In this document: positions 2,999 to 24,870 of the stretch, piece after piece
How the letters are laid out: every line of letters starts with the position of its first letter
Numbering within the stretch: the stretch's first letter is position 1
NCBI GenBank assembly: GCA_951813395.1
Contig: OX638356.1
Location: forward strand, 2,926,501-2,990,500
Source of the DNA: Longimicrobiales bacterium
GTDB lineage: Bacteria; Gemmatimonadota; Gemmatimonadetes; Longimicrobiales; Gaopeijiaceae
Length of the DNA stretch: 64,000 bases
Direction: 5' to 3'
Notes under the pieces: model-generated
Seen by the model: only the letters and a program-made list of their open reading frames with translations
Told to the model about the DNA's origin: nothing
Databases searched by the model: none
Program-made: the position numbers and the translations under genes

Positions 2999-3717
2999 CC
3001 ATCGTGACCTCCGCGAGCGTGGGCCGGGCCGCAAGTCGCGCCAGCGTGATAGGCGGCGTGGCGGCCGGACTCGCCGCCGCAGTCCTGCTTGCGACGAACG
3101 ACGGCCGCCCGACCGACGCTCCAGGCGGCGAAGCTCGATCTCTGCCGTACTTCGACGACGAGAGCTTCACGCCTCGCTGGTACGACGACCACTCCGATCT
3201 GCCCGCCGACTTTCACTCGGTCGGCTCGTTCAGCCTCGTCGATCAACACGGTGCCGAGGTCACCCACAAGACGCTGGGCGGCAAGGTCTACGTGGCCAAT
3301 TTCTTCTTCACCGCCTGTCCCGGGATCTGTCCAACGACGATGGCGAGCATGGCCCGTCTCCAGTCCGACCTGGGCGCCTTCGACGACGTGGCGCTGGTCT
3401 CCCACTCGATCACTCCCGAGGTGGACGACGTGCCGGTGCTCCGGGCCTACGCGGAACGGATGCGGGTCGTCTGGGCGGGATGGCACCTTGTCACCGGGCG
3501 CAGGCAGGTCATCGACGACCTCGCCAAGCGCGCCTACTTCTCCCACGAGGATATGGGAAGGGCGGCGGAGGCCGGGGCCCCCGACACCTTCCTACACACC
3601 GAGCAGCTTTTTCTAGTCGACCGCGACGGACACATTCGCGGCGTCTACAACGGGACGAGCCGCACCGCCGTCGATAGGCTCGTGGACGATGTCGAGGTGC
3701 TGAGACGCGAGCGCTGA
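2995..3717 (+). CDS. SCO1/SenC family copper-binding thioredoxin-fold protein
   Basis: The start is taken as GTG 2995, which overlaps the upstream stop as GTGA, giving 240 residues. An N-terminal hydrophobic segment (about residues 18-36) anchors or exports the protein. The thioredoxin-like domain shows the SCO copper site: Cys108 and Cys112 in FFFTACPGICPTTM, and the distal His201 in DTFLHTEQLFLVD. SCO proteins deliver copper to the CuA centre of cytochrome c oxidase or act as thiol reductants in the periplasm. No oxidase genes are nearby, so the target is unknown. Upstream YHYH and MORN lipoprotein genes form its operon. Confidence 0.9.
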   Translation: MTIVTSASVGRAASRASVIGGVAAGLAAAVLLATNDGRPTDAPGGEARSLPYFDDESFTPRWYDDHSDLPADFHSVGSFSLVDQHGAEVTHKTLGGKVYVANFFFTACPGICPTTMASMARLQSDLGAFDDVALVSHSITPEVDDVPVLRAYAERMRVVWAGWHLVTGRRQVIDDLAKRAYFSHEDMGRAAEAGAPDTFLHTEQLFLVDRDGHIRGVYNGTSRTAVDRLVDDVEVLRRER

Positions 3718-4215
3718 AGGCGGGTTGAGACCATGAGTTGAGAGGCGCCCGGGGCCGGCCCCGCGTCTGCGCCTCCGCCGGGAACGCCCCTCCCGGTGCG
3801 CCGACCGTCCGATTACTCTATCGGTATGTCCCAATGGAGCATGATGTCCCGGCGGTGGAGCACGATGTCCCGGTGGTGGAGCATGATGTCCCAATGGAGC
3901 ATGATGTCCCGGTGGATGCGGAGGGAGCGCGGATCCCCACTCGGTCGACCCAGGGGCGGAGCGTCGTGCCCCAGCAACGGGAGGCACCGCAGCCGCAGGA
4001 GGTGCCCCAGCCGCGAGAGGCGCCCGAGCTTTCGCGCGCTCTCGTTCGCGGTCGCGGCCCTCGCCTGCCTACCCGCACTCGCGGCGTCCCAGCTCCGGCT
4101 CCCGCAGGCGGAGCGAGACGGGCTCGCGAAGCCAGCCTTGGCGTCGGCGCTCCGACCCGCTTCCGGCCTGTCGCTCGGTCAATCCCCCGACTCCGTTCTC
4201 AGGATCATACGCCGT
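3718..4215 (+). other. Intergenic remnant region with possible broken secreted-protein ORF
   Basis: No intact gene is convincing here. One frame, open from about 3796, begins with the tandem repeat at 3826-3918. It later encodes a signal-peptide-like stretch (FRALSFAVAALACLPALAAS, about 4030-4090) and then about 40 residues before running without a stop into the transposase remnant at 4216. This could be the 5' stub of an exported-protein gene interrupted by the mobile element. It could also be chance coding in GC-rich DNA; I favour neither strongly. Confidence 0.3.
3826..3918 (+). repeat. Degenerate tandem repeat, units of 18 and 21 bp
   Basis: Five units start with ATGTCCC: 3826-3843 (18 bp), 3844-3864 (21 bp), 3865-3885 (21 bp), 3886-3903 (18 bp) and a partial unit from 3904. 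The first and fourth units are identical. Unit lengths are multiples of three, so all frames stay open. One frame reads Met/Trp/Ser-rich peptides (MSQWSM, MSRWWSM) and another reads EHDVP repeats. Confidence 0.85.
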
Positions 4216-4485
4216 AACCACCACCGGCCCTGCCTGTTCGCCGTCGAGACCGAGGGGAAGGGCGGGCGTCGACGCCGGAAGTATCCCCAGGAGCTGGTCA
4301 TGACCCCCTACGAGAAGCTCGTCTCGCTGCCCGGGGCCGACGGCTTCCTGAAGCCAGGCGTCACCTTCGAGCAACTCGGCGCCGTTGCGCATGCCGCGAC
4401 CGACCTGGAGGCCGCCGGGGAAGTCCAGCGCGCCCGCAAGGAGCTCTTCCGCCTCGTCGGCATGGCGATGAACCCCGCCGCGTGA
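4216..4485 (+). pseudogene. Transposase C-terminal remnant (second copy)
   Basis: These 270 bp encode the last 89 residues of the same integrase-core transposase as at 319-1412 (NHHRPCLFAVETEGKG through MAMNPAA, stop 4485). There is no catalytic domain upstream, so it is a 5'-truncated relic. It differs from the left copy by only a few bases, which implies a recent duplication or a recent insertion of both. Confidence 0.8.
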
Positions 4486-4722
4486 TCCAGCACGCCGCCC
4501 CCTCGGCTCGCTCCGCTCGCCTCGCGGGCGGCGCCTTGCCCGCCAGGCCACCCCAACCCCAATATCCTTCCCTCCATCACCCCTCACCTTCACACCCCCT
4601 CGGCCCCACTCACCGGCTCGTTCATGCTCATGTCCGGGTTGGAAAACACTGTGATCCCGATGTTCGCGTACTCGCGGCGGCAATGGAGCGCCGCCACCCG
4701 GTCACCCAAGGACGACAAGCGA
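4486..4722 (+). repeat. Transposase downstream tail with 48-bp inserted GC-rich repeat
   Basis: After the stop, the sequence shared with 1413-1460 is interrupted by a 48-bp insert (about 4497-4544) containing ggctcgctccgctcgcc and the hairpin-forming gggcggcgccttgcccgcc, then resumes as aggccaccccaacccc. The insert looks like a small palindromic dispersed repeat or a terminator. The remainder up to 4722 holds no gene I can support and probably contains the promoter of the ProX-like gene. Confidence 0.5.
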
Positions 4723-5241
4723 ATGCTGCTGATCACCGGCGACAGGCCGAGGGGCCCGCGCGAGCTCTTCAAGCGGCTGGATGACCTCGGCGTGTCCCAC
4801 CGCACGATGACACACGACCCGGTCTTCACCGTCGAGGAGGCGCAGCACTTGCGGGGGCGCATCGAAGGCGCCCACTCCAAGAACCTCTTCGTGCGCGACA
4901 AAAAGGAACGGCATTGGCTGGTTTCCTGCCTGGCCGACCGAAAGCTCGACCTGAAATGGCTGGCGGGAGAGCTCGGTACAAGGCGGCTCACCTTCTGCAG
5001 TGCGCGGCGCCTTGGCGGCTATCTCGGGATCCGGCGCGGCAGCGTCTCCCCGTTCGCGATCATTAACGACAAAACCGGCATTGTCCAGGTGGCGCTCGAC
5101 GCGGAGCTGCTGGCTGCGGAGCCCCTCAACTTCCATCCGCTGGACAACTCGAAGACCACAACGCTGTCCACAGCGGGCCTGTTGCGCTTTCTGGACGCCG
5201 AGGGCCACCACCCCCACATCATCCGCTTTCCGGCAGGCTGA
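4723..5241 (+). CDS. ProX/PrdX-like prolyl-tRNA editing deacylase (YbaK fold)
   Basis: The 172-residue product from ATG 4723 has the length and motifs of the free-standing YbaK/ProX (PrdX) editing domain. HSKNLFVRDKKERHWLV carries the Lys-Asn-Leu-Phe signature, and RLGGYLGIRRGSVSPFAI with NFHPLDNSKTT matches the rest of the active-site pocket. Proteins of this family hydrolyse mischarged Ala-tRNA(Pro) in the cytoplasm. The upstream in-frame ATG at 4624 lies closer to the transposase tail and would add residues unlike the family, so 4723 is preferred. The gene stands alone, convergent with the serine hydrolase that follows. Confidence 0.88.
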   Translation: MLLITGDRPRGPRELFKRLDDLGVSHRTMTHDPVFTVEEAQHLRGRIEGAHSKNLFVRDKKERHWLVSCLADRKLDLKWLAGELGTRRLTFCSARRLGGYLGIRRGSVSPFAIINDKTGIVQVALDAELLAAEPLNFHPLDNSKTTTLSTAGLLRFLDAEGHHPHIIRFPAG

Positions 5242-5246
5242 TCGGT

Positions 5247-6368
5247 TCAGCGGAAGGCGGGCAGGACGTGCTGGACCACGATGTCCATGGTCACTCGCTC
5301 GTAGTCCTCGGCCGCTTCGCCCATGCGCCACCAGTTGTTGGTCGTGACGACGACCAGATTGAGGCCCGGCACGACAACGACATACTGTCCGCCGTGACCC
5401 CACGCGAAATACATGGGCTCGGGGGCGTCGGGAGCGACCCACCACAGGAATCCGTAGGAGATTCCCTTCAGCGAACCGGAGTCGAAGCGCCAGTCGAATC
5501 GGCCCATGGTGGACCGGTCGACCCAGTCGGCAGGAATGATCTGCCGTCCCCCGCTGGATCCCCGCTGCAGATAGAGTTGTCCGAACCTCGCCAGGTCGCG
5601 CGGTCGCAAATCGAGTCCCGCACCCCCGTTGTGGAACCCGCCGCCCAGACTCTCCCACCGGCTCTTCGCAATGCCCATGGGATCGAGGAGCACGTGCTGG
5701 GCAAAGTTGGGAAGGTACATGGTGGTCGCCTGCTCGATCACCACGCCGAGCAGGTGCACGGCACCCGAGTTGTAGGTGAATTGGGTCCCGGGCGCCGATG
5801 TCAGTGGCTTCTCGAGCACGAAGCCGAGGTAGTCGCCCGAACGAATCCAGTCGATGTACGATCCGAATCCGCCCGACTCGTCCCATTCCAGGCCACTGGT
5901 CATGGTGAGGAGCTGTCGCACCGTGATTGCCCGCTTGTCCGGCTCGATCCGCCCCGTCACCCCGTCCAGATAGTCGCCGATCGGATCGTCCAGTCCGTCG
6001 ATGTCCCCGCGCGCGATCGCAATGCCGGCAAGCGCCGATACAACACTCTTGGTGACGGACCGGACATCGTGCAGCTCTTCTTCGGCCCCGTCGCCAAAGT
6101 ACTCCTCGACGACCAGCCGTCCATCCTTGACGACGAGCAGGCTGCGCATGCGGTCGTTCGCGCCGGCCAGTTCCACGGCGCGCGCCATGCGTTCCGGCGA
6201 ACCTCCGACGTCGGCCAGGGAGGCCTCGACCCAGGGCAGGGCCAGATCGATATCGAGAGGGCCCGAGGGTCCGGGACCCAGGGGCCCCTCACTACACGCC
6301 GCCAATAGACCGGCTGCCGCGGCAGCGGCCACCTGTCTCAGCTTTGGCCGTATTTCGTGCGGATGCAC
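5247..6368 (-). CDS. Secreted serine hydrolase, beta-lactamase/PBP fold (class C-like)
   Basis: The protein has 373 residues. The N-terminus is a lipoprotein signal peptide (AAAAAGLLAAC, Cys25). Catalytic motifs of the class C beta-lactamase/esterase family are present: Ser104-x-x-Lys107 (SVTKS), Tyr-x-Asn (TYNSG) and His-Gly-Gly (WGHGGQYV). Such proteins are usually esterases, peptidases or carboxypeptidases rather than true beta-lactamases; the substrate cannot be read from sequence. The gene ends 5 bp from the convergent ProX-like gene and faces the divergent gene at 6673 across a 304-bp gap. Confidence 0.88.
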   Translation of the reverse strand: MHPHEIRPKLRQVAAAAAAGLLAACSEGPLGPGPSGPLDIDLALPWVEASLADVGGSPERMARAVELAGANDRMRSLLVVKDGRLVVEEYFGDGAEEELHDVRSVTKSVVSALAGIAIARGDIDGLDDPIGDYLDGVTGRIEPDKRAITVRQLLTMTSGLEWDESGGFGSYIDWIRSGDYLGFVLEKPLTSAPGTQFTYNSGAVHLLGVVIEQATTMYLPNFAQHVLLDPMGIAKSRWESLGGGFHNGGAGLDLRPRDLARFGQLYLQRGSSGGRQIIPADWVDRSTMGRFDWRFDSGSLKGISYGFLWWVAPDAPEPMYFAWGHGGQYVVVVPGLNLVVVTTNNWWRMGEAAEDYERVTMDIVVQHVLPAFR

Positions 6369-6672
6369 TCGCCCGCCCCATCACGAGGAGCAATCAACGC
6401 CTTGCACACCGAATCTGCACGAAAACCACCACTGCGCGCCAGTCGACGCACCACCCATCCTCCGGTCACGCCTTGTCCCGACCGAGGCGTCCCGGTACCT
6501 GCTCGCGTCGCGCAACCCCTCATCAACGACCCCTAGCGCCACAGCGGAGAATCGTCGAATCTTCGGAAACCGATTCCCGCCGCAGATCGTTAATGCGTGA
6601 TCGGGGGACCGGATCGCCGGACGGGACTTCCAGCCCCGCCGGGACCGTCAGCAATGGGAAGGATGGAATGTC
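6369..6672. other. Divergent intergenic region
   Basis: This 304-bp stretch separates two divergent genes and should hold both promoters. I see no tRNA, no convincing short ORF with a ribosome-binding site, and no clear inverted repeat. It is somewhat less GC-rich than the flanking genes. Just upstream of 6673, aatgggaaggatgg offers a plausible ribosome-binding sequence for the plus-strand gene. Confidence 0.4.
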
Positions 6673-7314
6673 ATGAAACGTCTGGAGCGTCTGGCCCCGA
6701 CCACGCGTCCCCTAACGTCGTGCGCCGCCGCGATTCATCCAGGGCTGCTCGCGTTGGCCGCGTTGGCCGCGTCCGCCGCATGGAGTTGTGCGTCTCCCCA
6801 GGTAGCGAACCCCGAAGAGCAGGTCGCCCAGGCGCTCGCGGCCGCGCCGGAGGAACTGGCCGAAGGAGCCCGAGTCCTCGGCTACGCCACCGACGGCTCT
6901 GTCGTGCAGCTTCGCGAGGGATCCAACGACTTCGTCTGTCTGGCCTCCAACCCGGCCAACGAGCGATTCTCTTCGTCCTGCTACCACGCTTCGCTGGAGC
7001 CCTACTTCGCCCGCGGCAGGGAACTGGACGCGGTGGGTACGAGTCGCGAGGACCGGTACCGCATTCGCTACGAGGAAATGGAGGCGGGCTCGCTCCAGAT
7101 GCCGGTCATGTCCGCCGCCCAGTACATCTTCGACGGGACGTGGAACAGCGAGACGCGAACCGCCGAGGGCATGGTGCGATGGGTCATCTATGTGCCCGGA
7201 GCAACCGAGGAGTCGATCGGGCTGTCGGCCGTGCCGGTCGAGGGCGGCCCGTACCTGATGTTCGCAGGCACCCCGGGCGCCCATATCATGATTGTTCCGC
7301 CTCGGGACGGGTAG
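6673..7314 (+). CDS. Secreted protein of unknown function
   Basis: This gene encodes 213 residues. A long N-terminus with a hydrophobic segment (about residues 22-38) ends in AAWSCAS, which could be a lipobox. The mature part has two Cys in LREGSNDFVCLAS...SSSCYHASLEPYF and a conserved-looking C-terminus (VRWVIYVPGATEESIGLS, then MFAGTPGAHIMIVPP). I do not recognise the family. The presence of paired Cys, many aromatic residues and no repeats suggests a small folded periplasmic domain. It is followed after 12 bp by the cardiolipin synthase gene and may be co-transcribed with it. Confidence 0.7.
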   Translation: MKRLERLAPTTRPLTSCAAAIHPGLLALAALAASAAWSCASPQVANPEEQVAQALAAAPEELAEGARVLGYATDGSVVQLREGSNDFVCLASNPANERFSSSCYHASLEPYFARGRELDAVGTSREDRYRIRYEEMEAGSLQMPVMSAAQYIFDGTWNSETRTAEGMVRWVIYVPGATEESIGLSAVPVEGGPYLMFAGTPGAHIMIVPPRDG

Positions 7315-11594: not shown

Positions 11595-12380
11595 TCACCC
11601 GTAGCGCCCCTCGATATAGTCGGCAGTCTCGGAGCTTTCCGGGTTCAGGAACACTTCATCGGTGCGGCCGTGTTCGATGATCCTCCCCAGCAGCATGAAC
11701 ACGCACTCGTCGGACGCCCGTCGCGCCTGCGCCATGTTGTGTGTGACGATCAGGATCGTGTAGTCCCCGCGCAACTTCCAGATCAGCTCCTCGACCGCTT
11801 CCGTCCCGGCCGGATCCAGTGCCGAGCAGGGCTCGTCCATCAGCAGCACCTCCGGTTTCACCGGCAACAGGCGTGCAATGCACAGCTTTTGCTGCTCCTC
11901 CAGCGACAGTCCGGTCGCGGGCCTGTCCAGCCGGTCCCTGACCGTGTCCCACAGGAGGACCTGCCGCAGCGAGGACTCCAGGATCCGGTCCTCCTCGGCC
12001 GCCGACACCTTGCGCAGCCGCGCTTCGTGCAGCCTGAAGCCGAACAGGACATTGTCCCTTATGGAGATCGGCAGCGGATTCGGACGCTGGAAGACCATGC
12101 CGATGCGCTTGCGCACCTGAACCAGTTCGACTCCATCGGCGAAGATGTCGTGGCCGAGGATGCTCACGCTCCCGGTCGTTCGCACGTACCCGAGTCGTTC
12201 GATGATTCTGTTGCACGTGCGCAAGAGCGTGGTCTTGCCGCACCCCGACGGACCAATCATCGAGGTAATGATCCCCCGCTTCACCTCCAGGTCGACGTCG
12301 TAAAGCGCCTGGAAGTCCCCGTACCAGAGGTTCAGGCCCCGGGTCTCGATGGCGTATTCGCCGCGGTCGCCGTCAGCCAA
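11595..12380 (-). CDS. pstB: PstB-type phosphate transporter ATPase, copy 2 (degenerate signature)
   Basis: This is the last gene of the pst operon. The best start is TTG 12380, overlapping the previous stop by 8 bp, giving 261 residues (PstB is normally about 250-270). Walker A (GPSGCGKTT, about 43-51), Q-loop Gln98 (MVFQRPNPLP), Walker B (LLMDEP, Asp182-Glu183) and H-loop His214 (VTHNM) are canonical. The ABC signature is not: LSLEEQ replaces LSGGQ (about 158-163). PstB normally works as a homodimer powering PstCA. Here the defect complements those of the neighbouring PstB, suggesting a heterodimer. The C-terminus (ETADYIEGRYG) is typical of PstB. Confidence 0.88.
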   Translation of the reverse strand: MADGDRGEYAIETRGLNLWYGDFQALYDVDLEVKRGIITSMIGPSGCGKTTLLRTCNRIIERLGYVRTTGSVSILGHDIFADGVELVQVRKRIGMVFQRPNPLPISIRDNVLFGFRLHEARLRKVSAAEEDRILESSLRQVLLWDTVRDRLDRPATGLSLEEQQKLCIARLLPVKPEVLLMDEPCSALDPAGTEAVEELIWKLRGDYTILIVTHNMAQARRASDECVFMLLGRIIEHGRTDEVFLNPESSETADYIEGRYG

Positions 12381-13134
12381 AACGTCCCTCGATGTAGCCG
12401 GTGGTGCGTTCGTCCCGGACCTTGCCCTCGAAGAGATCCTCGGTGATGCCGATATCGACCATCTCACCCATCAGAAAGAAGGCCGTGCGGTCCGCCAGGC
12501 GGCGCGCCTGCTGCACCAGGTTCGTCACCAGCACGATCGTCAGCTCGGAGCGAAGCTCCCGGAGCACGTCCTCGATCCGCATGGTCGTCACCGGATCGAC
12601 CGCGATCGAGAACTCGTCCAGGAGCAGCAATTCGGGCTCCTGCGACAGCGCGCGCGCAATCGTGAGGCGCTGCTGTTGTCCACCGGAAAGCAGGCTCCCC
12701 AACGAGTCCAGCCGGTCCTTGACCTCATCCCACAGGGCGGCACGGGTCAGGCACCGTTCGACCACCTCGTCCAGTTCGGCCCTCTTGCGAATCCCCCGCA
12801 GCCGCGGCGAGAAGGCCACGTTGTCGTACACGGTCATCGGCAGACCCACCGGCAGCGGCAATACGACCCCGATCCTGCTGCGCAGCGCGTACACGTTGCG
12901 CCAGTCGTTGATGTCCTTCCCGTTGAGGCGGATGCTCCCCCGCACCTCCATCCCCGGATTGAAGCCGTCCATGCGGTTGAGCGCCCGCAGGAACGAAGTC
13001 TTGCCGCTGTTGGCGGGGCCGATGATCCCGAAGATTTCGTGCCGGTGGATGTCCAGCGCAATGTCCCGCAGCGCCGGCTGTCCATCGTAGGAGATAGTCA
13101 GATCCCGCACTTCGATGATCGGGGGTTCTACCAC
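12373..13134 (-). CDS. pstB: PstB-type phosphate transporter ATPase, copy 1 (degenerate Q- and H-loops)
   Basis: GTG 13134 overlaps the pstA stop and gives 253 residues, ending in TGYIEGRFG like other PstB proteins. Walker A is present in the unusual form GPANSGKTS (39-47), Walker B is intact (LLLLDEF, Asp173-Glu174) and the ABC signature is intact (LSGGQQQRL, 149-157). The Q-loop reads GVVLPLPVGLP, so the Gln is replaced by Pro93. The H-loop His is Asn205 (VTNLVQQ). On its own such a protein should hydrolyse ATP poorly. The partner encoded immediately downstream has the missing residues. A longer open frame upstream to 14316 is antisense-like overlap with pstA, not a fusion. Confidence 0.88.
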   Translation of the reverse strand: MVEPPIIEVRDLTISYDGQPALRDIALDIHRHEIFGIIGPANSGKTSFLRALNRMDGFNPGMEVRGSIRLNGKDINDWRNVYALRSRIGVVLPLPVGLPMTVYDNVAFSPRLRGIRKRAELDEVVERCLTRAALWDEVKDRLDSLGSLLSGGQQQRLTIARALSQEPELLLLDEFSIAVDPVTTMRIEDVLRELRSELTIVLVTNLVQQARRLADRTAFFLMGEMVDIGITEDLFEGKVRDERTTGYIEGRFG

Positions 13135-13997
13135 TTCTTCAACCCCCGCAGGTAAACCCGGAAGCCAATCGAGATCGCGTTCATCAGCAACACGATCGAG
13201 ATCAGTACCAGCGCCACACCGAACGGAATCTCCTCGGGCACGCCGGTCTGCTGGGTCGCGATGTAGTACAGGTGGTAGGACATCGCCATCGTCTGATCGA
13301 GCACGCTGTTGGGAAGGAAGGCCACGAACGCGGCGGCTCCCGTGAACATGATCGGTGCCGTTTCGCCGGCCGTCCGGGAAACCTCGAGGATCACCCCCGT
13401 GAGGATCCCGCTGATGGAGTTCGGAAGAACAACCTTGCGAATCGTCTGCCAGCGGGTCGCGCCCATGTTCCAGCAGGCCTCGCGGAACGCTTGCGGTACC
13501 GCCTGGAGCGACTCGCGGGTCGCGACAATGACGACCGGCAGCGTCATCACGGCGAGGGTCAGGCTGGCCGCAAGGATCGAGGCTCCGATGTTGAAGAAGA
13601 GTACGAACGCACCCACGCCGAAGAGCGCGTGCACGATCGACGGGACTCCTGCCAGGTTGATGATCGCCAGGTTGATGGTCCGGGTCAGCAGGTTGTCCGG
13701 CGCGTACTCGCTCAGATAGAGGGCTGCGGCCACGCCGACCGGCACCGACGCCAGCAGCGCCACCGCCACCAGCCAGACGGTTCCCACCAGTGCCGGGAAG
13801 ATCCCGCCGGCCGTCATCCCGTCCCGCGGCGCCGAGAAGAGGAACTCCCACGAGATCGCCGGCCCACCCTTCACCACGAGAGTGCCGGCGATGATCAGCA
13901 CCGGAATCACCAGGGTGACGGTCATCAGGAAGAATACGGCCCGGGCCACACCCTGGGCCCGTTGGCTTCGCCTGTTGAGCGTCGTGGCGGTAAACAT
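13128..13997 (-). CDS. pstA: Phosphate ABC transporter permease PstA
   Basis: The product has 289 residues and six predicted membrane segments. The binding-protein-dependent transport core contains the EAA-type loop FREACWNMGATRWQTIRKVVLP, preceded by ESLQAVP, and SRTAGETAPIMFTGAA typical of PstA. It forms the inner-membrane phosphate channel with PstC. It starts 3 bp after the pstC stop and its own stop overlaps the start of the first pstB, consistent with one transcript. Confidence 0.93.
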   Translation of the reverse strand: MFTATTLNRRSQRAQGVARAVFFLMTVTLVIPVLIIAGTLVVKGGPAISWEFLFSAPRDGMTAGGIFPALVGTVWLVAVALLASVPVGVAAALYLSEYAPDNLLTRTINLAIINLAGVPSIVHALFGVGAFVLFFNIGASILAASLTLAVMTLPVVIVATRESLQAVPQAFREACWNMGATRWQTIRKVVLPNSISGILTGVILEVSRTAGETAPIMFTGAAAFVAFLPNSVLDQTMAMSYHLYYIATQQTGVPEEIPFGVALVLISIVLLMNAISIGFRVYLRGLKKW

Positions 13998-14000
13998 GGG

Positions 14001-14951
14001 CTATTTCTTCCGGATGCCGCGAACCACCACGTCCGCAGTCAGGTTGATGATGAACGTGACCAGGAACAGGAAGATGCCCAGCGTGAAGAGCGCACCGTAG
14101 TGGTTCGATCCGTACACCGTATCCCCGAGTTCGGCGGCGATCGTCGCCGTAAGGGCGCGAACGGAGTCGAAGGGACTCGTGGGCAGGTTGATTGCATGGC
14201 CCGACGCCATCAGTACGGCCATGGTCTCCCCGAACCCCCTCCCGACGCCAAGCAGCACCGCCGCCAGAAGTCCGTTCTTGCTGGCCGGGATCACGACCCT
14301 GCGAATCACCTCCCACCGGGTGGCCCCCAGGGCCTCCGCAGCCTCGCGGTAGGTGTCGGGGACGGCCTTCAGCGCGTCTTCCGCAATGGTCGTCATGATC
14401 GGCGCCGCCATCAGTCCCAGGATGAGCCCTGCATTCAGCACGCCCAGCCCTACCGGCACGTCAAACGTCTCGATGATCAGCGGGTTCATTATCGACATGC
14501 CGACGAACCCCCACACCACCGAGGGAATCGCGGCGAGCATTTCCACCAGGATCTTGAGCGCTTCCCGCGTCTTCCCCGTGGCGAACTCCCCGATGTAGAG
14601 CGCGGCGCCCAGCGACAGGGGCACGGAAAACAGCATCGCGAAGCCCGTGACGCTGGCGGTGCCCACCATGAGCGCCAGCGCCCCGTAGGTCGGGTTGTTG
14701 GAGGTGGGGCGCCATGCGATCGACGTAAAGAACTCCCCCGGATCGAGCGCCCCGAGGACGAAGTCCAGCCCCTCCTTGGTGACGAATACGAAGATCCCGA
14801 GGATGAAGATGATCGCGGAGATCCCGCCCACGAAGACGAGGGCCTGGGCCACGCGGTCCACATACCATGCCAGGTCGCGGCGATCCATCGCACCACGCGG
14901 ACCCATCGGGGATGGCGGCGGCGCGGTCGCGGTTTGGTCCGGAGGCGTCAC
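14001..14951 (-). CDS. pstC: Phosphate ABC transporter permease PstC
   Basis: The start is placed at GTG 14951, which overlaps the stop of the PhoU-like gene (GTGA) and gives 316 residues; ATG 14906 is an alternative. After a Pro/Thr-rich cytoplasmic tail, six membrane segments follow, with the permease loop TYREAAEALGATRWEVIRRVV and GVGRGFGETMAVLMASGHA typical of PstC. A large periplasmic loop between the first two segments (LDFVLGALDPGEFFTSIAW) is also family-typical. Its partner PstA follows directly. Confidence 0.92.
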   Translation of the reverse strand: MTPPDQTATAPPPSPMGPRGAMDRRDLAWYVDRVAQALVFVGGISAIIFILGIFVFVTKEGLDFVLGALDPGEFFTSIAWRPTSNNPTYGALALMVGTASVTGFAMLFSVPLSLGAALYIGEFATGKTREALKILVEMLAAIPSVVWGFVGMSIMNPLIIETFDVPVGLGVLNAGLILGLMAAPIMTTIAEDALKAVPDTYREAAEALGATRWEVIRRVVIPASKNGLLAAVLLGVGRGFGETMAVLMASGHAINLPTSPFDSVRALTATIAAELGDTVYGSNHYGALFTLGIFLFLVTFIINLTADVVVRGIRKK

Positions 14952-16030
14952 ACGTCGTCCCGAACCCCCAGGGTCGTCATCAGTCGGCGAATCCGCTGCA
15001 TGAGTTCCCGGTACAGTTTCTCGATATTCGGTTCGTCGCCGCTCACGTCCTCGTCCAGATCCCACCGGAGAACGGCGGTCCGATCGGGGAGGGAACCATG
15101 GCTGTCAGGATCCACTCCGAGCCCCACGATCACGTGATGGTGCCGCAACGGGTCGAGCGCATCGGCGAAGGCCACGGGAGCGGCTTTGGCCGGCAGAACG
15201 ATGCCCCGGCGCCGGCAGAACGCAAGCAGGGCCGGAGCAAACCCGGTCGCGGCCTGAAGCCCCGCCGACCCGATGCGGCCGGCATTCGGATAGCTCTCAA
15301 CACACGCCAGTTCCGCCATCTTGCTGACCATGGCGTTGTCCGCATCCACGAAGAGCATGCGGTAACGCTTTTCTCCCTTTCGTTCCCCGGTGGCGGCAAA
15401 AATCGTCTGCTGACAGATGTTCTCCGCCTGCTCCGCCGTCCGCTGCATGAGCCGAAAGACCAGCAGCGCGCCGAAGAGGTCGCGTGCGGGGCGAGGGTCC
15501 GAGTCCGCCGCCGAACTCAGGATCTCAAAGGCGTAGGGGTAGACCGCCGCAGTCTGCGCCGCGAAACCCCGCGAAACCCGCGCCGCGTCCGTGTCACCTG
15601 CCATGAACCCGTCCAGAGCGGCCCTCAGAGCCCGTCCCGCATGTTCGCTCATCAACCCGATATTGTGCAGCACGGTATCGGGCAGCGGTGACTCGATCTG
15701 CCGCGCCACTCGACAGATCGCGACCGAGTAGTCGCCCACGCGCTCCATGGCGACGGAAAGCCGAAGCACGCCGGAGACGAACCTGAGGTGACTTCCGCTG
15801 GGAAGATACCGGGCCACGAACAGGTGGCACAGGTGATCGATCTCGCGGGTGGCCTGATTGACCGCCCGATCCTTGATCAGAGTCTCGTTGGCCAGGCGCC
15901 GGTCGAGGTCGAGGACGGCCTGCACCCCGTGCCGGAGGTTGTGCAGGACCTGTTCTCCGATGTCGCCCAGCCGCGTGCGGATCGCTACGAGGTCGGCTTC
16001 CAGGCGCTGGTCGTAGAGGCTCAAACGCAC
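14948..16030 (-). CDS. PhoU-domain protein fused to inactive LMW-phosphatase/arsenate-reductase-like domain
   Basis: The start is GTG 16030, overlapping the pstS stop by 10 bp, and the product is 360 residues against about 220-240 for ordinary PhoU. Residues 1-215 form the helical PhoU region, with a good metal-binding motif MERVGDYSVAI (95-105) and a weaker second one (LMQRTAEQAENI, 194-205). Residues about 222-355 resemble low-molecular-weight tyrosine phosphatase/ArsC: a P-loop-like FVDADNAMVSKM, GRIGSAG, and the C-terminal VLRWDLDED...IEKLYRELMQRIRRLM helix pattern. The P-loop Cys is Asp229 and the Arg is Val235, so catalysis is unlikely. PhoU normally links the Pst transporter to PhoR control. 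The added domain could sense phosphate or a phospho-protein (inference). Confidence 0.82.
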   Translation of the reverse strand: MRLSLYDQRLEADLVAIRTRLGDIGEQVLHNLRHGVQAVLDLDRRLANETLIKDRAVNQATREIDHLCHLFVARYLPSGSHLRFVSGVLRLSVAMERVGDYSVAICRVARQIESPLPDTVLHNIGLMSEHAGRALRAALDGFMAGDTDAARVSRGFAAQTAAVYPYAFEILSSAADSDPRPARDLFGALLVFRLMQRTAEQAENICQQTIFAATGERKGEKRYRMLFVDADNAMVSKMAELACVESYPNAGRIGSAGLQAATGFAPALLAFCRRRGIVLPAKAAPVAFADALDPLRHHHVIVGLGVDPDSHGSLPDRTAVLRWDLDEDVSGDEPNIEKLYRELMQRIRRLMTTLGVRDDV

Positions 16031-16890
16031 TCCATCTCGGTGTAGGGTGCATACCCACGCTCCAGAATCACGCACTGGCCCTCCTGCGAGAGGATCCAGT
16101 CCATGTACTCCCTGACTGCACCCTGCGGCTCGCCCGCGGTGTACATGAAGAGTGGGCGGGCGATAGGATAGCTTCCGTCGACGGCCGTGGCGATGGTCGG
16201 CTCCACGCAGTCCCCGCCCTCGTTCGCCATCACGCAGGGCATGCTGACGTGGTCCGTGGCGTATGCGAGCCCGCTGTAGCCGATGGCGCACGGCGTGTTC
16301 TCCACCAGGTCGACCACGTCCTTTGAGCCGTGCATGTCCCGGGACCCGAGCTTGTACTCGGTGTCGTCGCCGAGCACGGTCTCCTTGAAGTAGACGTAGG
16401 TGCCCGAGTTGTTCTGGCGGCTCACAAGAACGATCTCGTCCGAGTCGCAGCCCGGCACGGCAACTCCCAGATCGGACCACCTCGTCGCCGTGCCGCCTTC
16501 CCCGTACACGGTCTTGAGCTGCTCCAGGCTCATGCTCCGGATCGGGTTGTCGGCATGCAGATAGACCGCGAGCGCGTCGTATCCGACGATGTATTCGACG
16601 GGTTCGACCCCGTTCTCCCTGGCCGCATCGAATTCCGCCTCACGCATCTTGCGGGACGAGTTCGCGATGTCCACGGTGCCGTTGATCATCGCCGAGATGC
16701 CGGTCCCGGAACCCCCGCCCGTGACCGCCACGGCGACACTCGAATTGACCGAGCTGTACACTTCGGCCCACGCCTGGGCGACGTTCAGCAGGGTATCCGA
16801 GCCCTTGTTCTGGATCATGGCCCGTTGCGCCCTGTCGGCGCCGCCGCATGCGAGGACCAGCAGCGCGGCAATAGGGATGACTTTCTTCAT
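16021..16890 (-). CDS. pstS: Phosphate-binding lipoprotein PstS
   Basis: The protein has 289 residues, starting MKKVIPIAALLVLACGG with lipobox Cys15. The phosphate-binding fold shows GSDTLLN, the glycine-rich TGGGSGTGISAMINGTVDIA with ANSSR following, and SRQNNSGTYVYFKE, all contacts seen in PstS proteins. Several Cys in the C-terminal half may form disulfides. It is the periplasmic receptor that hands phosphate to PstCA. It follows the porin gene after a 117-bp gap containing GTCAC repeats and its stop overlaps the PhoU-like gene. Confidence 0.92.
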   Translation of the reverse strand: MKKVIPIAALLVLACGGADRAQRAMIQNKGSDTLLNVAQAWAEVYSSVNSSVAVAVTGGGSGTGISAMINGTVDIANSSRKMREAEFDAARENGVEPVEYIVGYDALAVYLHADNPIRSMSLEQLKTVYGEGGTATRWSDLGVAVPGCDSDEIVLVSRQNNSGTYVYFKETVLGDDTEYKLGSRDMHGSKDVVDLVENTPCAIGYSGLAYATDHVSMPCVMANEGGDCVEPTIATAVDGSYPIARPLFMYTAGEPQGAVREYMDWILSQEGQCVILERGYAPYTEMECV

Positions 16891-17007: not shown

Positions 17008-18075
17008 TCAGTAGTACAGATAGGTCTGCAGCTTGAAGGAGACTTCCCGCCTGCCCGCGGCGGAATCGTAGATGTCCAGGTTCGCCCCGATCCGGTTCTT
17101 GCCGGCCACGTAGAGGAACAGCCCGGGCGTCAGGAGCAGTCCGCCGTCGTCGCCAGAGGCGCGGTCGGGATCCCCCCAACTCACGCGTGCCATGGGCTCC
17201 ACGGCCTCGAAGCTGCCGCTCTCCAGCGGCACATGCCGGCTCAGGATCACCTGGCCGGTCAGAAAGCTCGGGATCTCGCCCTCGTCCGACCGCGGCTTTC
17301 GCCAGTTCGCGCCACCGATCAGGCCCACTTGCAGGTGCGTCCCGCTTCGGAAGCCGCCGATCTCGAGGTCGCCGCCGAACGCCGTGGCCGTTGCGCCCTC
17401 GCCATGCGGGCCGACGAAGTCATGCCTGGACGCGTTGGCCGAGACCGAAACGCCGTCCGCCAGACGCAGCGTCACTCGACCCGCGACCGACTTGCCCGAG
17501 TTCTCGTCCGCCCCCGAGGTGCCCGTGCCGTTCGTGAGCGTAGCCATGTAGGACAGCCTGTCCCCGATCGAACCGTCGGCCTTGAAGCCGATATCCCGAT
17601 CGGAGTAGGCGAGCTTTTCCGTGAAGCGACTCAGCGCGCACGTGCCTCCCGGGCCCGCGCAACCACTGAAACCGTTGATCCGTCCGGTCCTTTCCACCAC
17701 CACGATGTCGGTCGAACTGTTGAGCTCGAAGATGTCGAAGGCCCTCTTGAACTGACCCACCGAGAACCGGAACGACGGGCTCACGTTGAGGCGGAAGTAC
17801 GCGTCCTTCAGTTCCAGTTCGCCTCCCCCGAAATCGGGCTGGACTCGCGCATCCAGGAGTTCCGAGACCCCGATGTCCAGCGTGAACCGTGCCCGCCGTG
17901 TGAAGAAATCGGTCGACTTCCCACCTTCGGCCGAACTCGTGGCAAACTGGGAATGGAGTCGCCCGCCGAAGCGCACCTGGGCGCTGCGCGCGGTAATCTC
18001 CACCTGTGCCCGGGTGGTTTCGGCCGTGCCGGCGGCGCAAAGAACAGCCATCGCAAGCATGCGGAACCTGATCAC
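17008..18075 (-). CDS. OprP/OprO-like phosphate-selective porin
   Basis: The product has 355 residues with a Sec signal peptide ending near TTRAQ. The rest is a typical outer-membrane barrel pattern of alternating residues, with VRFGGRLHSQF, FFTRRARFTLDIGVSELLDARVQPDFG and FRFSVGQFKRAFDIFEL matching the phosphate-selective porin O/P family, and a C-terminal aromatic residue (LQTYLYY). It should allow phosphate or related anions across the outer membrane. It is the first gene of the pst locus, which supports the assignment, and candidate Pho-type repeats lie about 100-175 bp upstream. Confidence 0.85.
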   Translation of the reverse strand: MIRFRMLAMAVLCAAGTAETTRAQVEITARSAQVRFGGRLHSQFATSSAEGGKSTDFFTRRARFTLDIGVSELLDARVQPDFGGGELELKDAYFRLNVSPSFRFSVGQFKRAFDIFELNSSTDIVVVERTGRINGFSGCAGPGGTCALSRFTEKLAYSDRDIGFKADGSIGDRLSYMATLTNGTGTSGADENSGKSVAGRVTLRLADGVSVSANASRHDFVGPHGEGATATAFGGDLEIGGFRSGTHLQVGLIGGANWRKPRSDEGEIPSFLTGQVILSRHVPLESGSFEAVEPMARVSWGDPDRASGDDGGLLLTPGLFLYVAGKNRIGANLDIYDSAAGRREVSFKLQTYLYY

Positions 18076-22328: not shown

Positions 22329-23132
22329 TCAGGCGCTCATGGAAGCCGCTGGCGGATTCGCCATCCCGGCTTCAAGTCGGAGCATGGACTTCGTCAGACG
22401 CTTCTCGACATCGGTGATGGCAGCCGTCGTCCGCCGCTCAAGCCCGCCGATCGACTCGGTTACACGATTCTCGACCCTGTCGATCCGCGCGTCGAGGCCC
22501 TTTATCCCCTCCGTAAGGTGACGGAGGTCGTTCTGGCGGAGCATGTCGATCTCACTCTTGATACCGTCTCTGAACTCGTCGCGAAGGTTGCCGATTTCGT
22601 CGCGAAGGTTGCCGATTTCGCCGCCAAGATTGCCGATTTCGCCGCGCAGCGTGCCGACCTCACCGCGGAGTTCGCCGCGTAGCGTGCCCACCTCTTCGCG
22701 GAGTTCGCCGACTTCACCACGGAGCGTACCGACCTCACCGCGGAGTTCGCCGACTTCACCACGGAGCGTGCCAACCTCACCGCGAAGCTCGCCGACTTCA
22801 CCACGGAGCGTGCCGACCTCACCGCGGAGTTCGCCGACTTCACCACGGACCGTGCCAACCTCACCGCGAAGCTCGCCGACTTCACCACGGAGCGTGCCGA
22901 CCTCACCGCGGAGTTCGCCGACTTCACCACGGACCGTGCCCACTTCACCGCGGAGTTCGCCGACTTCACCACGGACCGTGCCCACTTCACCGCGGAGTTC
23001 GCCAACCTCACCACGGAGCGTGCCGATTTCACCGCGCAGGGTGTCTGTCGCCCGGGCAACGATCCGCCACACCGCCGCCACCGCCACCACCAGTCCGGCG
23101 ACCGCCGACATCGCCAGCCACACCTCGTTCAT
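22329..23132 (-). CDS. Membrane-anchored coiled-coil protein of near-perfect heptad repeats
   Basis: ATG 23132 starts a 267-residue protein: one membrane segment (about residues 3-24), then about 21 heptads of the form GEVGELR / GEVGTLR / GEVGTVR (about 32-180). A more divergent helical tail ([10 protein letters not shown], then [20 protein letters not shown] and [15 protein letters not shown]) follows. Val and Leu alternate at 3/4 spacing, as in the core positions of a two- or three-stranded coiled coil, but each heptad also holds two glycines, which is unusual. One short unit (GELR) inserts four residues, a stutter. The family is not recognised; topology resembles DUF1640-like or spacer proteins. 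Confidence 0.75.
22640..23045 (-). repeat. 42-bp tandem repeats encoding paired heptads
   Basis: The coiled-coil gene contains about eight to nine tandem units of 42 bp, each coding for two heptads (GEVGELR plus GEVGTLR or GEVGTVR). Adjacent units differ by only a few bases, so repeat number is probably variable by slippage or recombination without breaking the frame. Confidence 0.85.
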
Positions 23133-23307
23133 CTCGTCCTCCGCTCCCGCGCCCGGTCCGCGATGGGCCAGACCCGATTCAAAGATATGAAAGCCGCTGC
23201 CGCGATGCCACGCGGGCGCAGGCGGAATCGATGACCCCCGTAGCTCACGTGATTCGGCGTCCCGGACGCCGGCAGCCGAACGATGGCGACCGGTGGTGGG
23301 CGCAGAC

Positions 23308-24870
23308 ATGGCTGGATCGGCCTTCTTCCAGTATTCTCCCGAAGTGACTACTCCAACCCAGATCCCCCGGCTCCTCCAATCCGGCGCCGCCAACGACACC
23401 GCCTTCTCGGCCCCGGGGCGGCGCGACCTCACCTACGCCGGCCTGCGCACGCACGTCGAGGTCACCGTGGGCGCGCTCAACCGCCGGGGCATCGGGCGGG
23501 GCGACCGGGTGGCCATCGTGCTGCCCAACGGGCCCGAGATGGCGAGCGCCTTCGTGGCGATCGCGGCCGGCGCCACCACCGCGCCCCTCAACCCCGCGTA
23601 CCGAAGACCCGAGTTCGAGTTCTACCTGCAGGACCTGCGGGCGAAGGCGCTGGTCGTGGCCGAGGGCGACGACTCGCCCGCCCGGGCCGCCGCCGCCGCG
23701 CTCGGGGTGCCGGCCATGGAAATCCGTGCGGAGCCGGACAGTCCTGCAGGCACCTTCTCCTTCGTGGGCGAGCCCCAGGGCGCACCCGCAAAGCGAGGAG
23801 GCCTCGCCGGGCCCGACGACGTCGCACTCGTCCTCCACACCTCCGGCACCACGTCGCGACCCAAGATCGTGCCACTGCTCCACAGGAACGTGTGCGCCAC
23901 CGCCGAGAACATCCGCCGAACGTTGCGGCTGGAGCCCGGCGACCGCTGTCTCAACGTGATGCCGCTCTTCCACATACACGGGCTGATGGCGTGCGTGCTG
24001 TCGACGCTGCACGCGGGTGCGAGCGTCTGCTGCGCGCCGGGGTTCAACGCGCTCCGGTTCTTCGGGTGGCTGGCCGACGCCGACCCCACCTGGTACTCGG
24101 CGGTCCCCACGATGCACCAGGCGATCCTCGCGCGCGCACCGCGCAACCGCGACGTCGTGGAACGCCTCAGCCTCCGCTTCATCCGCTCCTCGTCCGCGGC
24201 GCTGCCGTCGCGCGTGATGGCCGAACTGGAGGAGGCATTCCAGGCGCCGGTCGTGGAGGCCTACGCCATGACCGAGGCCGCGCACCAGATGACGTGCAAC
24301 CCGCTGCCCCCGGCGGCCCGCAAGCCCGGCACGGTGGGGATTGCGGCCGGCCCCGAGGTCTCGGTGATGGACGCCGCCGGGAGCCACCTCGCGCCGGGCG
24401 AGGAGGGCGAGATCGTCATCCGGGGGCCGAACGTCACGCCGGGCTACGAGAACAACGAGGCCGCGAACCGCGAGGCCTTCACGCACGGGTGGTTTCGCAC
24501 CGGCGATCAGGGCTTCCGCGACGAGGACGGGTATTTCACGATCACCGGGCGCCTCAAGGAGATCATCAACCGGGGGGGCGAGAAGATCTCGCCGCGCGAG
24601 GTGGACGAGGTGCTGATGGACCACCCGGCCGTGCAGCAGGTGGTCACCTTCGCGATGCCGCATCCGAAACTGGGCGAGGAGGTGGCGGCGGCGGTGGTGC
24701 TGCGCGACGGTGCGGAGGCGGGTTCGGGCGACGTGCGCGACTTCGCGGCCACGCGCCTGGCCGGGTTCAAGGTGCCGCGCAAGGTGGTGATTCTGGACGA
24801 GATCCCGAAGGGCCCCACGGGGAAGCTGCGTCGCATCGGATTGGCGGATCAGCTGGGCTTGGGGGGATGA
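23308..24870 (+). CDS. Acyl-CoA synthetase (AMP-binding), oxalate-CoA-ligase-like
   Basis: The product is 520 residues from ATG 23308; GTG 23344 is also possible. Adenylate-forming motifs are in order: the P-loop LVLHTSGTTSRPKIVPL, MPLFHIHGLMA, the substrate region WYSAVPTMHQAIL, EAYAMTEAAHQM, GWFRTGDQGFRDEDGYF, GRLKEIINRGGEKISP and the catalytic Lys in PKGPTGKLRR. HTSGTTSRPK, FIRSSSAALP and MTEAAHQMTCNPLPP are closest to plant AAE3/yeast Pcs60 oxalyl-CoA synthetases, so oxalate or another short acid is a fair guess. A PanE-like reductase follows 70 bp downstream, perhaps in one operon. Confidence 0.85.
   Translation: MAGSAFFQYSPEVTTPTQIPRLLQSGAANDTAFSAPGRRDLTYAGLRTHVEVTVGALNRRGIGRGDRVAIVLPNGPEMASAFVAIAAGATTAPLNPAYRRPEFEFYLQDLRAKALVVAEGDDSPARAAAAALGVPAMEIRAEPDSPAGTFSFVGEPQGAPAKRGGLAGPDDVALVLHTSGTTSRPKIVPLLHRNVCATAENIRRTLRLEPGDRCLNVMPLFHIHGLMACVLSTLHAGASVCCAPGFNALRFFGWLADADPTWYSAVPTMHQAILARAPRNRDVVERLSLRFIRSSSAALPSRVMAELEEAFQAPVVEAYAMTEAAHQMTCNPLPPAARKPGTVGIAAGPEVSVMDAAGSHLAPGEEGEIVIRGPNVTPGYENNEAANREAFTHGWFRTGDQGFRDEDGYFTITGRLKEIINRGGEKISPREVDEVLMDHPAVQQVVTFAMPHPKLGEEVAAAVVLRDGAEAGSGDVRDFAATRLAGFKVPRKVVILDEIPKGPTGKLRRIGLADQLGLGG

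Follow-up and report, generated by a model that had tools for sequence, protein, structure and literature searches.

The window, by which we mean the whole 64,000-nucleotide stretch of Longimicrobiales DNA analysed here, carries an operon in the order porin O/P-like gene, pstS, phoU-LMWP, pstC, pstA, pstB1 and pstB2 (Table 1). The phoU-LMWP gene encodes a PhoU protein fused to a pseudo-ArsC domain and lies between pstS and pstC, a position that the original prediction had pointed out and that is borne out both here and across the family. The open reading frame it described, 14948-16030, is real, but the GTG at 16030 is not the start used by the family; relatives share a conserved start two codons downstream, the TTG at 16024. 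The Asp at the place of the former catalytic Cys is residue 227 when counted from the TTG at 16024 and Asp229 when counted from the GTG at 16030.

Table 1. Features of the fusion-bearing pst operon, in window positions.
Feature	Position	Strand	Remarks
Phosphate-selective porin O/P-like outer-membrane protein	17008..18075	-	Upstream of pstS; close relative in L088 matches PF07396, E 8e-9
pstS, periplasmic phosphate-binding protein	16021..16890	-	TIGR02136 E 7e-67, above cut-off; PF12849
phoU-LMWP gene	14948..16024	-	TTG start at 16024; 358 aa
PhoU moiety, residues 1-214	15383..16024	-	Six-helix PhoU fold
Pseudo-ArsC/LMW-PTP domain, residues 217-352	14969..15376	-	Profile and fold matches
Former catalytic P-loop DADNAMVS	15323..15346	-	Cys to Asp, Arg to Val
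pstC permease	14001..14888, start uncertain	-	TIGR02138 E 2.9e-78, above cut-off
pstA permease	13128..13997	-	TIGR00974 E 3.4e-76, above cut-off
pstB1 ATPase	12373..13131, start approximate	-	TIGR00972 276 bits, below 343-bit cut-off
pstB2 ATPase	11595..12467, start uncertain (12467 is the first GTG of the ORF)	-	TIGR00972 311 bits, below 343-bit cut-off

As members of a PstSCAB importer, PstS, PstC and PstA score above their NCBIfam cut-offs, while PhoU and both PstB proteins score below theirs; PstS passes TIGR02136 but not TIGR00975. The same genome has a separate, ordinary phoB-phoR-pstS-pstC-pstA-pstB-phoU operon elsewhere (L038), and the fusion operon is therefore a separate, additional Pst subtype. 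In the ordinary PstB of that second operon (L038 5586-7328), the H-loop His is replaced by Tyr (ATYNRWQ) and the signature reads LSAGQ. The porin O/P-like gene is linked to the fusion operon mainly in Gemmatimonadota. Elsewhere in the window, an open reading frame on the minus strand (22329-23432) contains tandem GEVG-ELR/TLR repeats with a 42-bp unit in 8.5 copies (91% matches) and probably encodes a variable coiled coil.

Architecture of the PhoU-LMWP protein

The N-terminal half matches Pfam PF01895 (E 2.3e-17) and, over residues 6-215, the NCBIfam model phoU_full TIGR02135 (E 1.6e-30); its score of 106.3 bits lies below the curated equivalog cut-off of 130.25, as do the 113 and 117 bits of the relatives at L029 and L117. 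In the AlphaFold model of the full-length protein (pLDDT 93.2, pTM 0.82), fold search matched one half to PhoU crystal structures (4q25 and 1t72; Foldseek TMt 0.92-0.94) and the other half to ArsC. The first ExxxD motif of PhoU (ERxGD) is invariant in the family (65/65), and the second is altered to Q/K/E-R-x-x-D/E-Q. The first acidic residue of this second metal motif is gone in most relatives, the position being E in 22 of 65, K in another 22 and Q in the window's protein. When PhoU halves from 40 fusions and 13 ordinary proteins, including several pairs from one genome, were placed in a tree, the two kinds split on one branch (100/100).

The C-terminal domain alone gave no Pfam or NCBIfam match. 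A family profile of 21 sequences found ArsC 3t38 among solved chains (E 2.9e-12), a profile of 65 sequences found the ArsC chains 1y1l (E 2.4e-12) and 3t38 (E 7.5e-12), and 36 of the 65 family members individually match PF01451 (LMWPc). When the domain was modelled with AlphaFold2 (pLDDT 91.6), it matched arsenate reductases and LMW-PTPs from end to end (Foldseek E 5e-8), with 3t38 as the best fold match (Z 16.1 over 130 residues, rmsd 3.3) and 1jf8 also matched (Z 15.6 over 129 residues, rmsd 2.6). These searches show that an LMW phosphatase of the ArsC type was the ancestor of the C-terminal half. The fold that the original prediction had assigned to the C-terminal ~135 residues is thus upheld by profile, model and whole-length fold matches, and the structure prediction and fold search it had proposed as a check place the domain in the LMW-PTP superfamily. 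We regard the PhoU plus pseudo-ArsC architecture as near certain.

Three other explanations were ruled out. A response-regulator receiver domain was considered on account of the likeness of RILFVDxD to RILVVDDD; profile and fold searches give ArsC/LMW-PTP along the whole domain. A sequencing or assembly artefact is excluded by the identical architecture at 100+ independent loci, and a chance fusion within a single lineage by surveys across genomes and phyla.

Distribution of the operon and its two ATPases

A search that started from PstB1 (PstB1-first) and covered 84,980 species genomes returned at least 590 stretches, at least 507 of them encoding a relative, and 80 loci were kept. Among the matches listed, record titles name Gemmatimonadota, Acidobacteriota, Planctomycetota, SAR324 and a Bacteroidetes bin as well as alpha-, beta- (Accumulibacter, Dechloromonas), gamma- (Thiodiazotropha and others) and deltaproteobacteria, and of the 72 listed loci with contig room, 71 have PhoU-LMWP between pstS and pstC, the exception (L098) being without the fusion gene. 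Domain-first searches, in which loci were not selected on PstB, found the fusion in the window's phylum (42 of 395 genomes, E < 1e-26) and in a Pseudomonadota draw (23 of 398 genomes, E < 1e-30). In each case these matches are well separated from ordinary ArsC, which follows at about 1e-13 to 1e-15. Allowing for contig ends, all 14 Gemmatimonadota loci from this search have the same gene order; 18 of the 20 Pseudomonadota loci reach pstB1, and the remaining two are L212, which is cut by a contig end, and L205, which is a degenerate copy. The operon pstS-phoU-pstC-pstA-pstB1-pstB2 with the fusion is conserved. Dechloromonas SSD3 and Planctomycetes Poly30, both with complete records, have no PhoU match outside the fusion locus, so that the only PhoU found in some genomes is of the fusion type.

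The exceptional loci and the flanks deserve mention in their own right. The L098 genome, also from Longimicrobiales, keeps the variant importer and both PstB proteins and has lost the phoU between pstS and pstC (3175-5080). Among the loci compared, the only other layout of PhoU-LMWP is the single odd locus L205 (G462:C75:63600-76000, 4464-7097, minus strand), where the sole Pst-type partners of a second copy are a PstC-like permease and a PstB-like ATPase that is strongly degenerate (GARKCGKS, FARSAPFP, LTDEERL); pstS, pstA and pstB1 are absent and a PiT-type transporter adjoins. Perhaps this is a transporter turned regulator. PhoB/PhoR-type genes lie near the variant operon in some loci, polyphosphate kinase 2 (PPK2) genes in several lineages (flanks of L112, L115, L138, L140 and L149) and a phosphoglycerate mutase-type gene in about ten loci. 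Ordinary-looking pstC/pstA/pstB-like genes share the locus of the variant operon in L131 (6 kb flank of the match).

The two ATPases are altered in complementary ways. PstB1 keeps Walker A, LSGGQ and Walker B; its Q-loop Gln is replaced (VVLPLPVGLP; VVxPLPVGLP in the family) and its H-loop His is Asn (VTNLVQQ). PstB2 keeps the Q-loop (FQRPNP) and the H-loop (VTHNM), and its signature has changed from LSGGQ to LSLEEQ. In the PstB1-first set, this pattern is present in 81 of 81 PstB1 and 77-78 of 78 PstB2 sequences among the matches listed. The peptides used in that scan, GGQQQRLT and LLDEFSIA, selected for the PstB1 signature and Walker B, and neither the Q and H loops of PstB1 nor any part of PstB2 was selected for; no part of either PstB was selected for in the two domain-first sets, found by the LMWP domain alone, in which the complementary motifs recur. 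Complementary motif loss in two co-encoded nucleotide-binding domains (NBDs), as in degenerate-site heterodimeric ABC ATPases, is thus present here. Both ATP sites of an NBD dimer are composite, and a putative PstB1:PstB2 heterodimer would for this reason have one consensus and one degenerate site. The consensus site would combine Walker A/B and the Q and H loops of PstB2 with LSGGQ of PstB1, and the degenerate site would combine Walker A/B of PstB1, lacking Q and H, with LSLEE of PstB2. The original prediction could not reveal that the fusion protein is part of a distinct, widely distributed Pst subtype containing such a pair.

The altered P-loop and the proposed role of the domain

In the window's protein, the ancestral P-loop C-x-G-N-x-C-R-S has become D-A-D-N-A-M-V-S. 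The residues originally singled out (Asp229, Asn232, Val235, Ser236, GSAG and RWDLDED) are placed exactly when counted from the GTG at 16030, and the loss of the catalytic Cys and Arg holds across the family. Among 96 distinct sequences, 73 from the first surveys and 23 found independently in Pseudomonadota, none retains the catalytic Cys; the position is Asp in 93 and Gly, Glu and Ala in one each. The P-loop Arg is kept in 4 and lost in 92, Asn at +3 is kept in 71 and Ser at +7 in 56, while E or D occupies +1 in 50 and +2 in 62. The mean loop charge is -1.7 for the 73 sequences and -2.4 for the 23, compared with +1 in 6 of 7 standalone ArsC matches. The general-acid column (WDLxDP region) is not conserved, with E, P, D, G or S at the Asp site and Glu in the window. 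Because both Cys and Arg are lost, family knowledge indicates that Cys chemistry would be impossible, and the domain is, to judge from these residues, dead as a Cys phosphatase or reductase. The Asp that took the place of Cys is evidently under selection. Ala239, Trp323 and Leu350 are invariant and Asp229 is near-invariant (numbering from the GTG at 16030), and dN/dS among close relatives is ~0.2-0.45 for the domain and 0.1-0.15 for the PhoU half, pointing to purifying selection on both halves. The survey of fusions and P-loop positions that had been suggested with the original prediction thus reveals a conserved domain and not an unconserved linker.

We favour, with modest confidence, a model in which a distinct and widespread Pst importer has PhoU-LMWP as its fixed regulatory subunit, with the pseudo-ArsC domain docking PhoU on the asymmetric PstB1/PstB2 pair. 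The domain would function as a non-catalytic protein-docking module and, as gene order and family knowledge suggest, would orient PhoU on a PstB1/PstB2 heterodimer. Acting from one defined face, PhoU may then gate transport; where PhoBR is present, it may also report flux to PhoR. Distances of the LMWP domain track those of PhoU most closely (r 0.86) and those of PstB1 and PstB2 less (0.74 and 0.80), and all operon proteins correlate, making this signal not specific. The faster evolution of the domain relative to the PhoU half would also fit looser constraint, and L098, which retains the importer without the fusion gene, counts against the docking model.

The most interesting rival gives the acidic loop D-(E/x)-(D/E)-N a new function, as a site that binds a divalent metal or a basic partner residue or at which the Asp is itself phosphorylated, making the domain a switch and not a dock alone. 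Random decay is not expected to keep one residue in 97% of the sequences, and the frequent acidic residues at +1 and +2, the Asn at +3 and the negative loop charge agree with such a site; however, the Asp alone may be structural, capping the loop amides, and the other acidic positions vary, from DADN in the window to DRRN or G at +3 in some relatives. We consider this reading rather unlikely as it stands. Lower still is the probability of the role proposed originally, in which the catalytically silent domain binds phosphate, arsenate or a phosphoprotein as an oxyanion sensor. Backbone amides help to bind anions in the ArsC-like fold, the model gives this fold for the P-loop region with high confidence, and an anion may be bound elsewhere or through the backbone amides only. 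Yet the former phosphate loop has lost its anion-binding Arg in nearly all sequences, has Asp fixed at the thiolate position and has turned acidic, the reverse of the charge that anion binding would call for, and the sensor role is thereby weakened and not supported. That the domain is a functionless vestige or spacer would fit its faster evolution but is very improbable given its retention across phyla, its invariant residues, dN/dS well below 1 and its high-confidence fold. An enzyme using Asp as the nucleophile, to which the conserved Asp at that position might point, deserves hardly any credence with the Arg lost and the general-acid region not conserved.

Beyond the docking model, we put forward only tentatively that these operons, which occur in several bacterial phyla, encode an as yet undescribed class of ABC importer for phosphate. 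Its ATPase would be a heterodimer with a single degenerate site and would be controlled by a PhoU with a repurposed phosphatase domain, the acidic loop of which would serve as a new switch site (metal, basic partner or phospho-Asp) and link intracellular state to asymmetric ATP hydrolysis. We found no description of the PhoU-LMWP fusion or of the asymmetric PstB pair in the open-licence literature searched, and a prior description elsewhere is possible. How PhoU reads and controls the state of the Pst transporter is a long-open question. The variant modifies both partners, giving PhoU an extra domain and making the ATPases asymmetric, so that the working face of PhoU could be identified genetically. 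Its occurrence in Accumulibacter, a wastewater polyphosphate accumulator, has a bearing on phosphate removal.

Relation to known systems

PhoU, Pst, ArsC folds, pseudophosphatases, tandem pstB genes and degenerate-site heterodimers are all known kinds; what appears to be new, as far as the literature searched goes, is their combination in one conserved importer. With PhoU of the E. coli PstSCAB-PhoR-PhoB system (structures 4q25, 1t72 and 2i0m), PhoU-LMWP has in common the six-helix fold, ERxGD and the location in a pst operon. Unlike ordinary PhoU, it has the extra pseudo-ArsC domain and the altered second ExxxD motif, and its gene lies between pstS and pstC, whereas ordinary phoU stands at the end of the second pst operon of the same genome. 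In E. coli, contacts of PhoU with PstB and with the PhoR PAS domain are known (PMC4423584).

The tandem pstB1-pstB2 genes of Enterococcus faecalis and other Firmicutes likewise form an adjacent pair with non-equivalent roles in a pst-phoU operon (PMC12096839), but both E. faecalis proteins, which were aligned with PstB of S. pneumoniae and E. coli, are reported to have intact motifs (PMC12096839), in contrast to the complementary losses here. One consensus and one degenerate composite site, as predicted for PstB1/PstB2, are found in the heterodimeric ABC transporters BmrCD (PMC4046567) and MsRv1273c/72c (PMC12038006). These are exporters, as are the literature examples we met, whereas PstB1/PstB2 belong to a Pst-type importer; if our model is correct, a degenerate-site heterodimer would operate in an importer.

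With the thioredoxin-coupled ArsC and LMW-PTP superfamily (3t38, 1y1l and 1jf8), the C-terminal domain shares whole-domain fold and sequence homology; unlike these proteins, it has neither the nucleophilic Cys nor the P-loop Arg, carries an acidic loop and is fused to PhoU. A phosphatase fold in a possibly non-catalytic role is also found in the D2 domains of receptor PTPs, which recruit partners, the pseudophosphatase D2 of PTPRU being a substrate-recruiting module (PMC7320164). The LMWPc-type factor mt-SAF26 in a mitoribosome assembly complex (6sga), matched by both profile and fold, need not be catalytic there. PTPRU D2 and mt-SAF26 are eukaryotic and have other partners, whereas in PhoU-LMWP Asp is fixed at the Cys position.
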